Shown: piece by piece, positions 1 through 32,001 of the stretch | Position numbering within the stretch: position 1 is the stretch's first letter | How the letters are laid out: the number at the start of each line of letters is the position of its first letter | Assembly (NCBI GenBank): GCA_947630535.1 | Contig: CANRHZ010000020.1 | Coordinates: 1 to 32,001 of the forward strand | Reading direction: 5' to 3' | From: Candidatus Gastranaerophilales bacterium | GTDB lineage: Bacteria; Cyanobacteriota; Vampirovibrionia; Gastranaerophilales; Gastranaerophilaceae | DNA length: 32,001 nucleotides | Notes under the pieces: model-generated | What the model was told of the DNA's origin: nothing | Seen by the model: only the letters and a program-made list of their open reading frames with translations | Databases searched by the model: none | Made by a program: the position numbers and the translations under genes

Positions 1-54
1 TAAAACCGCCTAATCCCTTGGGGGGGGGGGGTAAGCTCCAAACAATTTAACCAT
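1..54 (-). CDS. 5' end of a type IV pilin-like gene, out of frame at its poly-C tract (partial)
   Basis: Reading the minus strand from the ATG at 54 gives M-V-K-L-F-G-A-Y followed by prolines from a run of 12 C. With 12 C the frame then reads P-R-D-stop (TAG within the window). With 10 or 13 C it would read P-P-P-K-G-L-G-G-F, the end of a prepilin leader with the peptidase site G|F, matching the pilin-like gene at the right edge. An AGGAG Shine-Dalgarno lies 8 nt before the ATG. The gene lies 69 bp downstream of the GGDEF/HD-GYP gene in the same direction, with no clear terminator between them. The rest of the gene lies beyond the left edge, so the product is inferred from the leader alone. 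It is either a phase-off state or an assembly error in the tract length. Confidence 0.6.
20..31. repeat. Homopolymer tract G12 (C12 in the coding strand)
   Basis: Twelve consecutive G on the + strand lie inside the leader codons of the left pilin-like gene, in an otherwise AT-rich region. The flank (CTAATCCCTT before the G run) is the same as at the right-edge pilin. Such tracts slip during replication and can switch a gene on or off. Sequencing also miscounts them easily. Confidence 0.85.
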
Positions 55-7076: not shown

Positions 7077-8558
7077 TTATATCGGGCGTTTATTTTGTTC
7101 GGTTGTTAAATTTCTGACATATTCAATAATACATGATGAAATATTTTTTGCAACATTTTTATCAAGCGCATTTGGGATAATGCAGCTATACGATAATTCA
7201 TCCTCTTTAACCATTGAAGCAAGGGCCTTTGCAACTACAATTTTTATGTTATTATCAATTACTCTTACACCCGAATTAATGACCCCGTCAAACAATCCCG
7301 GGAAAACAAGAGCATTATTGAGCTGATTTTTAAAATCCGACCTTCCTGATGCGACAATTTTTGCTCCCGCTTTTTTTGCTATATCAGGCATAATTTCGGG
7401 TATTGGGTTTGCAAGTGCAAAAACTATCGGGTAATACTCCATTTTCTCCACCATTTTGGGCGTAACTATGTTTCCTGCGCTTACTCCTATGAAAACATCC
7501 GCCCCCTTCATTGCAACTTCAAGAGAACCCCTTAAATCCGTTCTGTTTGTAATTTTTGCAATTTCATCAAGGGAAGAATCGTTCCCTTGCCTTCCTTTAT
7601 AAACTATTCCGTTTATATCTGACATTATTATGTTTTTTGCTCCCGCAGCCAAAAGAAGCTTTGCTGTTGCCTGCCCTGCGGCACCTGCTCCCGAAATTAC
7701 TATTTTTACTTTATCTATACTCTTTTTAACCAGTTTAAGCGCATTATATAGTCCCGCAAGCGCAACTATTGCCGCCCCGTGCTGATCGTCATGAAAAACG
7801 GGAATGGATAAATTTTGAACAAGGAACTTTTCAATTTCAAAGCATTGGGGGGCTTTAATATCTTCAAGGTTTATCCCTGAAAATGAATGCTCTAGAAGAA
7901 GAATAATTTTTTTGATTTTTATGGAATCTTGCGTATTTAAACATAAGGGCATAGCATCAATATTGCCGAGTTCTTTAAAAAGAACGGATTTTCCTTCCAT
8001 AACGGGAAGCCCCGCATCCGGCCCTATATTCCCGAGACCCAATATTGCGCTTCCGTCCGTTACTATGGCAACCGGTTTTCTTTTACCTATTGAATCGCTT
8101 ATTTTTGTTTCTATAACCCCTCCGAATGCGCTTCTTAATTCAAGGGGTTCCATATCCTCAAACTTAAAAGACTCGGGGAATATACATCCTTTGGAGCAGG
8201 TTGGTATAAATTCATTGTTATCAAAGGGCTTTCCTTCCATTAAAGTGGTATCAACCCCCATAAAGTTAGGAATAATGGCATCAATTACCATTTTAAGGTC
8301 CTCTTTTGAGCATTCTTTTATAACAAGAGGATAGGCATCTGTTGATATTTTTTCTTTAATATAAACCGCCCTTTTTGTTGAAAGCTCATAGTCATTTGAT
8401 AGAACCGCAATGGAATTAGACCTGTTTGTAAGCTCAAAAACCTTTTCAATGTTTTCTTTTATCTTTAAAGCTGATTCTGATACCCCCGGAGTATATACAA
8501 GGGATAAAATTTTAGAATTTTTAACTTTAACTTTAGGTGTTATTTCAATAGATTTCAT
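7077..8558 (-). CDS. Malic enzyme (NAD-type), with apparently duplicated N-terminal subdomain
   Basis: Oxidative decarboxylation of malate to pyruvate. The family signatures are present: Y22 in V-Y-T-P-G-V, G-S-A-I-L-G-L-G-N-I-G-P (169-180), M-E-G-K with catalytic K190, I-N-L-E-D (229-233), H-D-D-Q-H-G (256-261) and a Rossmann G-A-G-A-A-G at 290-295. D314 ends the second strand and favours NAD. At 493 residues it is about 100 longer than simple bacterial malic enzymes. The surplus is residues ~58-160, between I-A-V-L-S-N-D and V-A-I-V-T-D-G, and that segment resembles the following 160-245 region. The ATG overlaps the plsY stop (TAATG). Placement before rpsE is unusual. Function is firm; cofactor preference is inferred. 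Confidence 0.88.
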   Translation of the reverse strand: MKSIEITPKVKVKNSKILSLVYTPGVSESALKIKENIEKVFELTNRSNSIAVLSNDYELSTKRAVYIKEKISTDAYPLVIKECSKEDLKMVIDAIIPNFMGVDTTLMEGKPFDNNEFIPTCSKGCIFPESFKFEDMEPLELRSAFGGVIETKISDSIGKRKPVAIVTDGSAILGLGNIGPDAGLPVMEGKSVLFKELGNIDAMPLCLNTQDSIKIKKIILLLEHSFSGINLEDIKAPQCFEIEKFLVQNLSIPVFHDDQHGAAIVALAGLYNALKLVKKSIDKVKIVISGAGAAGQATAKLLLAAGAKNIIMSDINGIVYKGRQGNDSSLDEIAKITNRTDLRGSLEVAMKGADVFIGVSAGNIVTPKMVEKMEYYPIVFALANPIPEIMPDIAKKAGAKIVASGRSDFKNQLNNALVFPGLFDGVINSGVRVIDNNIKIVVAKALASMVKEDELSYSCIIPNALDKNVAKNISSCIIEYVRNLTTEQNKRPI

Positions 8559-18969: not shown

Positions 18970-20349
18970 ATGGATTTAGTTACAAATAAAACCATCGACA
19001 AGCTTAAATACGACCTTGTCAGAAACAATATTATAACTTTTGAAGATATTGAAAGGGCGCAAGAAATTGCAAATGCCCAAAATACCAATTTAGGACAGGT
19101 TTTGATAAATTCGTCTTTAATAACGGAAGAAAACCTGCTTAAATTTTTGGAAGAAAAACTCCACATTCCTTTTGTTAATCTGGATGATTATGAGATAGAT
19201 AAAAGGTGTTTAAAATATATAAGCTATAAAGAGGCGGTTGACTATAAAATGCTTCCCCTTTTTCAAATTGAAGATACTCTTACCGTTATTATGGCTGACC
19301 CTCTGGATTTATTTGCAATAGATAAGATAATCGAGCGCACGGGAAAAACCATAGAGCCTGTTCTCGGAAGTCAAAATGCCATACTGAAAAAAATAAATGA
19401 ATACTACGATCTTAAAGGTAAAGTTCAGGATATTACAACAAAAGAAGAAGAAAATTTTAAATGGACGGATGAACTTCATAAAGATGACGTATCCGAAGAA
19501 CACCTTCAAAACCTTTTCAGGGGAATTTTAAGACAGGCAATAAATGAAGGGGTGCATGAGCTCTTTTTTGAGCATGTGGAAGATGACCTTACGGTTAATT
19601 TCAAAAAAAATGATACTTCGTATATGACAGGTTCAATTCCGTCCCTTTTAATAAGTCCTTTTATTCGTATGTTAAAAAACCTCTGTGCGCTTGACCCTAC
19701 GATATCTGAAATTCCTCAACTGGGGAAATTGAATTTTAATGTTAACCAAATCAGTCTGACTGCAAGCATATCTGCTTACCCTACAATTAACGGGGAGAGG
19801 ATAATGCTTAAAATTTATCATCCGCCAAAAAAGATTGATGAACTGATAAAAGATAAAGAAACAATAAAAAAACTTCAAGATGCTCTTTTGGGGGCGGGGG
19901 TTATACTTGTGTGCGGAAGTTCCTTATCCGGTAAAACCCATCTTGTATATTCAATTTTAAGCGATTTAATTCCTCAAAATAAAACGGCCATGACTCTTGA
20001 ATCGGTTGCAAAATACAACTTGAAAAATGTAAGACAATCAGAATTAAATGAATCTGTGGGGTTTAACTTAGATAAGGCTATGAGGTATATTGAGTTTCAA
20101 TCCCCCGATATTGTTTATTTTGAGGGTGTTTCTACAAAAGAAGGACTTGATTTTTTCACATCTTTAACCCTGAAAAATAAAACCCTTATCACGGAATTTC
20201 TTGCAGATAATATGGACGAATTAAGAAGAAAATTTTCATATCCTGAATTTTCCTTTTTTAAATCGGTTATTTCCTGCCTCATTTTTATACATTCAAAAGA
20301 CACAATAGAATTTTTTGATAAAAGTGCAATCCAAAAGTATTTGCTTTAA
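18970..20349 (+). CDS. Degenerate PilB/GspE-like secretion ATPase with MshEN domain
   Basis: 459 residues. The N-terminus (~35-147) is a MshEN / GspE-N domain (L-G-Q-V-L-I...I-T-E-E-N-L-L-K-F-L...I-P-F-V-N-L), a fold that binds cyclic-di-GMP in some relatives. The rest follows the type II/IV ATPase plan: I-S-A-Y-P-T-I-N-G-E-R-I-M-L-K (267-281) and Walker A G-S-S-L-S-G-K-T (316-323). The usual I-E-D-P-V-E Asp box is replaced by M-T-L-E-S-V-A, Walker B/G-E-I-R-D by Y-F-E-G-V-S, and the zinc cysteines are absent. It may bind nucleotide without hydrolysing it and act as a regulator or a decoy of the real motor. GGAG inside the preceding gene is its ribosome site. Confidence 0.8.
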   Translation: MDLVTNKTIDKLKYDLVRNNIITFEDIERAQEIANAQNTNLGQVLINSSLITEENLLKFLEEKLHIPFVNLDDYEIDKRCLKYISYKEAVDYKMLPLFQIEDTLTVIMADPLDLFAIDKIIERTGKTIEPVLGSQNAILKKINEYYDLKGKVQDITTKEEENFKWTDELHKDDVSEEHLQNLFRGILRQAINEGVHELFFEHVEDDLTVNFKKNDTSYMTGSIPSLLISPFIRMLKNLCALDPTISEIPQLGKLNFNVNQISLTASISAYPTINGERIMLKIYHPPKKIDELIKDKETIKKLQDALLGAGVILVCGSSLSGKTHLVYSILSDLIPQNKTAMTLESVAKYNLKNVRQSELNESVGFNLDKAMRYIEFQSPDIVYFEGVSTKEGLDFFTSLTLKNKTLITEFLADNMDELRRKFSYPEFSFFKSVISCLIFIHSKDTIEFFDKSAIQKYLL

Positions 20350-31038: not shown

Positions 31039-32001
31039 TTATCTTTTAATGCAGCGAACGTAGTATGCGTTTGAGCGAAAGCTTCTGGAGCGTCCCCCGC
31101 TAATCATACCCTGTCTCCACGCAATGCCGTCAGCACCTGACGAGAGGGCAGACCCTGACCAGTAGCTATCAACATCTTTCATATCTACTAAAGAGCGGTT
31201 GACAAACATTGAACCTAATTCATCAATATCGGGTATTCTTGCATCATCCCCTTGTTTAGCGCAAAGAGATGCGGCATCATTACTTGAAGCTTCTTGAGGA
31301 TAAGATGCTGCATTTCCCGCATCACTTGGAAAAGGAACAGGTGCCACAACAACACTGTTTGTTCTATGCAGAACTGTGATAAATCCAACATCCTTACCAA
31401 CTTCATTAGGACCTTTTAAGCCATTAAGATCGTATATCATATTTACGCAAAATGCCTGACCTGCAAAATAGCTTTTATCGAGACGATTTGATTCGCATAA
31501 GGGATTATAGTATAGAGCTATTGATTCACCGTTAACGGTTTCAAAGGCTGCAGCATCCGTATCCATTGCTTTATTGTTGTCATCAGTTAAACCGGCATTT
31601 AATAAGCTTACTGTTTTTGGAAAATCCATTGTATTGCCATTTAGCGTTATTATGCTTGACGGTATTCCGCATGCTTTTAAGTTATTCTTATTACATACAT
31701 TTTGAACCCTGTAGACTTTTGATAAACCATCTATAATAAAGCTTTCTGCTGCTGATGATTTTAGATTAGCATCATTTTTATCGGGAATTGCACCATTTTT
31801 TGTTCCATACCCTGATACACTATCCATCTCCCCTATTGCCTGGCTCATTCTTGCATATAGTGCTTTTCTTTGTGCGTTCCAAGCTTTATCGTTGACGTTC
31901 ACAAGTAAACTGGGTAAGGTTATCGCTGCAACAATACCAATAATTGTTAGTGTTATCAATACTTCAGCTAAAGTAAATCCGCCTAATCCCTTGGGGGGGG
32001 G
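31039..32001 (-). CDS. Type IV pilin-like protein with C-terminal DUF1566/Lcl-like domain (5' end missing)
   Basis: 320 codons are visible; the start lies beyond the right edge. The frame passes through at least nine C (P-P-P), then K-G-L-G-G|F-T-L-A-E-V-L-I-T, a prepilin peptidase site with E at +5, and a hydrophobic helix ending I-V-A-A-I-T-L-P-S-L. The middle part (~45-240) is a pilin-type globular region with several cysteines. The C-terminus reads C-A-K-Q-G-D-D-A-R-I-P-D-I-D-E-L, then D-S-Y-W-S-G, A-W-R-Q and Y-Y-V-R-C-I-K-R, the DUF1566 / Lcl C-terminal pattern with C-type-lectin-like fold. A TTG inside the helix (31959) opens a shorter frame but would cut off the leader, so it is not the start. 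The protein is probably a surface pilin or pseudopilin carrying a binding domain. Confidence 0.85.
   Translation of the reverse strand, partial: PPPKGLGGFTLAEVLITLTIIGIVAAITLPSLLVNVNDKAWNAQRKALYARMSQAIGEMDSVSGYGTKNGAIPDKNDANLKSSAAESFIIDGLSKVYRVQNVCNKNNLKACGIPSSIITLNGNTMDFPKTVSLLNAGLTDDNNKAMDTDAAAFETVNGESIALYYNPLCESNRLDKSYFAGQAFCVNMIYDLNGLKGPNEVGKDVGFITVLHRTNSVVVAPVPFPSDAGNAASYPQEASSNDAASLCAKQGDDARIPDIDELGSMFVNRSLVDMKDVDSYWSGSALSSGADGIAWRQGMISGGRSRSFRSNAYYVRCIKR
31051..31160 (-). other. GC-rich, adenine-poor 3' segment of the pilin gene (candidate variable region)
   Basis: By hand count this 110-bp stretch has 65 G+C (59%) and only 20 A on the coding strand, while stretches just upstream in the gene are about 37-40% GC. 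It encodes the end of the lectin-like domain from about S-A-L-S-S-G to Y-Y-V-R-C. Many codons end in C or T (CGC, TCC, AGC, GGC, GAC, GCC, CTC), as AAC/AAT codons would after adenine-specific mutagenesis. No template repeat or reverse transcriptase is in the window. Confidence 0.45.
31993..32001. repeat. Homopolymer tract G at least 9 (C in coding strand), cut by the window edge
   Basis: Same sequence context as positions 7-31: CCGCCTAATCCCTT followed by a G run. It encodes prolines in the pilin leader. The full length cannot be seen. Confidence 0.8.

Follow-up and report, generated by a model that had tools for sequence, protein, structure and literature searches.

Genomic context of the pilin locus

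The window, a stretch of 32,001 bases from a Candidatus Gastranaerophilales genome assembled into 72 contigs (1.85 Mb, 98.5% complete), constitutes the whole of contig C20. At one end lies a prepilin-type open reading frame whose own 5′ end, including the start codon and most of the leader, is removed by the contig end (Table 1). Its N-terminal methylation motif was recognized by PF07963 at 23.1 bits (cut-off 21.2), and a weak match to Lcl_C/DUF1566 scored 18.9 bits, under the cut-off of 34.9. A profile search of the PDB with this pilin matched the N-terminus and not the tip. An AlphaFold model built from the pilin and six relatives reached a mean pLDDT of 41; it was considered unusable and set aside. 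An Rfam search of the window returned nothing. At the opposite contig end lies the leader of another family member, and a protein resembling type IV pilus or type II secretion ATPases is encoded between them. Elsewhere, the genome encodes a prepilin peptidase and T2SSE assembly ATPases.

The 3′ end of the pilin gene comprises the segment 31,051–31,160. The first-pass annotation had singled it out as a possible target of a diversity-generating retroelement (DGR), describing it as GC-rich and adenine-poor in a gene of about 38% GC, with codons resembling randomized AAY. Both descriptions proved accurate. On the coding strand, the segment has 59.1% GC and 18.2% A, compared with 38.2% GC and 34.1% A in the remainder of the gene and 33.9% GC across the window, and it ranks highest in GC among all 110-bp stretches of the window. 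It aligns with a template repeat (TR) on contig C30. Eight codons of the core read AAC or AAT in that TR, and seven of the eight are recoded in the window copy. The unusual base composition probably stems from a GC-rich TR in which many adenines were replaced.

Table 1. Coordinates of the pilin, leader, pilus and retroelement features. Positions refer to the window (contig C20) unless an L013 locus on contig C30 is given.
Feature	Position	Strand	Remarks
Type IV pilin-like gene, DGR target family	31039..32001	-	ORF; PF07963; 60-odd genome paralogues
TR-homologous stretch (variable repeat, wide sense)	31039..31167	-	Ungapped alignment, 69% identity to contig C30 TR
Variable repeat (VR) core, 23 codons, TGG...TGC	31051..31119	-	Mismatches to TR: 13/25 adenines, 10/44 other positions
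14 bases identical to TR at VR 3′ end; candidate homing (IMH-like) end	31051..31064	-	Sequence identity
Poly-C tract (coding strand) in prepilin leader	31993..32001	-	Contig end cuts after 9 C
Second family pilin, leader	1..54	-	ATG 54-52, 12 C at 31-20, then contig end
MshEN + T2SSE protein, type IV pilus/type II secretion ATPase-like	18970..20349	+	PF00437 2.6e-20, PF05157 4.1e-19
Avd-like protein	L013:4758-5099		PF22296 bAvd 59.3 bits, cut-off 40
TR	about L013:5272-5402		Between Avd and RT
DGR-type reverse transcriptase (RT), 404 aa	L013:5429-6643		RVT_1 1.2e-18

A single DGR cassette on contig C30

As a check on the DGR assignment, the first-pass annotation had proposed a genome search for a template repeat, an RT, and Avd. 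All are present on contig C30, where the Avd-like protein, the TR, and the RT follow one another in a row. Against NF033474, the Avd-like protein scored 52.1 bits, under the cut-off of 80. The RT contains LPIGNLTSQF, which fits the DGR-type motif [ILV]GxxxSQ. Its closest solved structure is 8ub7 (E 1e-35), the DGR RT of a Bordetella phage. Folding of the TR RNA was no better than that of shuffled sequence (z 1.05).

Besides the contig C30 set, no DGR-type RT or TR was found in the 98.5% complete genome. The sole other RT found, on contig C50, was considered as a second DGR and rejected, being retron-like and showing no TR. Its gene (L014:4680-5594) is preceded by a small helix-turn-helix gene.

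Recently rewritten members of the pilin family

Searching the genome with the window gene identified 62 places, and 58 pilin C-termini were comparable with the TR, the TR itself being excluded. Over the 69-bp core, 12 VRs differ from the TR at 8–15 of its 25 adenines and at 0–4 of the 44 other positions, and in a thirteenth, adenines account for 75% of the core mismatches. Across all 13, this share spans 75–93%. Adenines are replaced most often by G, then by T, then by C, an order consistent with the reported DGR pattern, in which G is the commonest replacement and C the rarest (PMC3521204).

Silent differences between VR and gene body were compared in four of the 13 young genes, namely those whose bodies are long. 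The bodies diverge by 29–42% at third codon positions, whereas the VRs are changed at 1–2 of 21 such sites. Given such diverged bodies next to nearly unchanged VR third positions, these four tips appear to have been overwritten recently. The young-tip pattern is unlike that expected from ordinary descent and fits overwriting from a common template. These comparisons indicate that at least 13 pilin tips were recently rewritten by one retroelement through targeted random mutations.

In the oldest family members, the adenine bias relative to the TR is absent. A better-kept 3′ homing end in old VRs was also considered, and the third-position mismatch of 0.37 at that end versus 0.42 was judged unconvincing. 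The TR itself carries a T in one AAT codon where C is present in 11 of 12 young VRs; it seems, therefore, to have changed since these copies were written.

The window copy as a probable aged variable repeat

Core mismatches of the window VR fall on TR adenines in 57% of cases (13 adenine, 10 other). DGR targets are usually expected to have an adenine share of mismatches of 75% or more (PMC8144416) and fewer than four other mismatches (PMC6642488). The window VR lies outside both, and by these standards the copy is not acceptable as a present DGR target. At codon positions 1 and 2, however, 12 of 23 adenines are changed versus 2 of 23 other bases (Fisher p=0.0015), and AAC codons altered at both positions have become GGT, GGA, and TCC; the replacements are thus adenine-directed. 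Third positions of the VR have drifted at 8 of 21 sites (0.38), and the body of the gene differs from its nearest paralogue by 0.36 at such positions. Silent drift in the VR thus equals that of the body, so the signature is old and does not look like recent writing. The third-position pattern of the window VR is unique among the VRs, the nearest of which differs from it at 14 of 37 sites. The window copy looks like a VR that was written long ago and has not been overwritten since. Identity with the TR over the last 14 bases suggests that it may have remained a possible recipient of cDNA.

We consider it quite likely that the segment is the VR of one member of a pilin-like family of about 58 copies served by the single DGR of contig C30, and that the window copy was written by this TR, or by an earlier form of it, and then drifted without overwriting. 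An unlikely alternative holds that the tip was never written by the DGR. It would then belong to an ordinary paralogue with surface residues driven apart by selection, and the TR would resemble it because the TR and the VRs derive from the pilin family. The equal silent drift of VR and body agrees with such an origin, as does the lack of adenine bias among the oldest members. The excess of adenine changes at codon positions 1 and 2, including the doubly altered AAC codons, argues against it, as does a base composition that equals that of DGR-written tips. The adenine excess nevertheless stays inconclusive on this point, because TR adenines sit at change-tolerant codons.

Somewhat less probable is ongoing diversification of the window copy by a second or population-variant TR missing from the assembly, to which the silent differences would belong. 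The 72-contig assembly does break at the pilin family, in the related genome G125 two copies of the TR lie next to the RT, and the last 14 bases of the window VR equal the TR exactly. Set against this are the unique third-position pattern of the window VR and the finding of one TR and one DGR-type RT in a genome that is 98.5% complete. A second TR was also sought through third-position patterns common to older VRs, and none emerged for the window copy. An assembly artefact, in which the contig end joined one pilin body to the tip of another, is very improbable. Two family members are indeed truncated by the ends of contig C20, but more than 800 bp separate the VR from the contig end, the reading frame is uninterrupted, and no other copy has the third-position pattern of this tip.

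Leader tracts and a proposed mechanism

In most complete leaders of the family, the ATG is followed by some 20 bases, a poly-C tract, AAGGGATTAGGCGGA, and the FTLAE codons. Among the 19 complete tracts, whose length differences are those between copies in one assembly and not between cells, lengths of 10, 11, 12, and 13 C occur one, six, eleven, and one times, respectively. Only the 13 C tract (1 of 19) places the ATG in the pilin frame; the ATG of the second pilin leader in the window, with 12 C, is out of frame. A few family members lack the tract and have their ATG in frame. The tract pattern occurs 23 times in the source genome and was found 0 times in eight congeners. Homopolymer lengths and copy number derive from an assembly that is fragmented and leaves most of the family at contig ends, 46 of 61 pilin matches falling within 150 bp of one (about 8% expected), and tract lengths are therefore to be read with caution.

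The first-pass annotation had further suggested a pilin both phase-switched and hypervariable. For the family, with its DGR-written C-termini and leader poly-C tracts, this idea is supported. For the window copy, the data do not show recent or continuing diversification, given its 57% adenine share, its changes at 10 of 44 other positions, and a VR drift equal to that of the body.

A plausible sequence of events can be outlined. TR RNA would be reverse transcribed with random bases placed opposite adenines, and the cDNA would take the place of a pilin gene's 3′ end by mutagenic retrohoming. Each rewriting would alter a lectin-like tip at about ten residues, and the tips would be exposed on a type IV filament. 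Slippage in the poly-C tracts would decide which copies are translated, with few displayed at once. Tentatively, and with slightly less than even confidence, we propose that one DGR may edit tips genome-wide across a pilin family of 60–117 genes, in which frame switches would choose the displayed copy and old silent copies would form an archive of past tips.

Occurrence in related genomes

The nearest named relative of the RT comes from the Candidatus Gastranaerophilales MAG BRZ_GD__bin71 (L048). There, two adjacent pilins (L048:5857-6828 and 7293-8264) have identical mutated tips on differing bodies, which indicates conversion or duplication between copies. The congener G007 displays the same architecture, with its own TR and about 110 pilins, and one of its VRs is changed at 6 of 23 adenines and at 0 other bases. 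Six genomes of genus g10 (G081, G106, G054, G143, G017, and G125) contain 92–117 pilins each, with RTs 59–62% identical to that of contig C30. G159 has a similar RT and only 6 pilins, and sampled genomes without a similar RT have 0–13. In the 1.7–2.0 Mb genomes of G007 and g10, the 92–117 pilin-like domain copies make up roughly 5% of the genome.

With the TR of G081 as query, one close repeat besides the TR was found in G081, likewise in G106, and eight in G017; G125 yielded none beyond two near-identical copies. These are TR-like stretches near the RT of G125 (L083:2881 and 4008, minus strand). Few g10 copies stand close to the TR, and fresh tips are therefore few in most of these genomes. 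The notion of a hundred active targets in g10 was accordingly rejected, since few copies lie near the TR despite the large family.

Relation to known systems and significance

The system resembles known multi-target DGRs (PMC3521204, PMC6642488, PMC8144416, PMC7517822) in its Avd-TR-RT set and its adenine-directed C-terminal VRs, which lie in proteins that are, in the present case, putatively DUF1566/lectin-like. Earlier work has already reported dispersed paralogues and more than one target per RT. Up to four VRs per cassette are described (PMC3521204), as are cyanobacterial DGRs with dispersed paralogues (PMC7517822) and DUF1566 targets of putatively pilin-like structure, together with larger, highly repetitive, atypical non-adenine cases (PMC6642488). 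The authors of one survey state that remote targets would escape their detection (PMC8144416). What differs here is that at least 13 apparently fresh and 58 TR-homologous tips belong to one dispersed pilin-like family, nearly all of them remote from the RT, so that a survey confined to its neighbourhood would miss them.

DGRs are reported to act on tip proteins of Bacteroides type V pili (cited in PMC12632263). As in those systems, a DGR of a gut bacterium would diversify a pilus-type binding tip; unlike them, the present one involves type IV prepilins, dozens of paralogues, and a leader frame tract. Contingency loci of Neisseria and Campylobacter (PMC5084427, PMC3025981) offer another parallel, since coding poly-C tracts of 10–13 near the start differ in length by copy and leave most copies out of frame. 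In contrast to those loci, the tract lies in the prepilin leader of paralogues with DGR-target tips. In the mainly open-access literature searched, no paper was found that pairs a leader frame tract with DGR-target tips, and none that joins DGRs with Gastranaerophilales or Melainabacteria; we make no claim of priority.

Hypermutation directed by a retroelement and frame switching at homopolymers are mostly investigated separately, yet both would operate within a single, very large family of surface proteins. DGR surveys based on contigs can overlook the largest sets of targets, because these are distant from the RT and cause assemblies to break. Comparison of silent sites between VR and body ranks copies by the time since their last rewriting and is usable for any multi-target DGR. 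The hosts are gut-lineage bacteria, relatives of cyanobacteria known mostly from genomes. If the proposal is true, tip editor and frame switch would constitute a two-layer system of surface variation in Gastranaerophilales-type bacteria.
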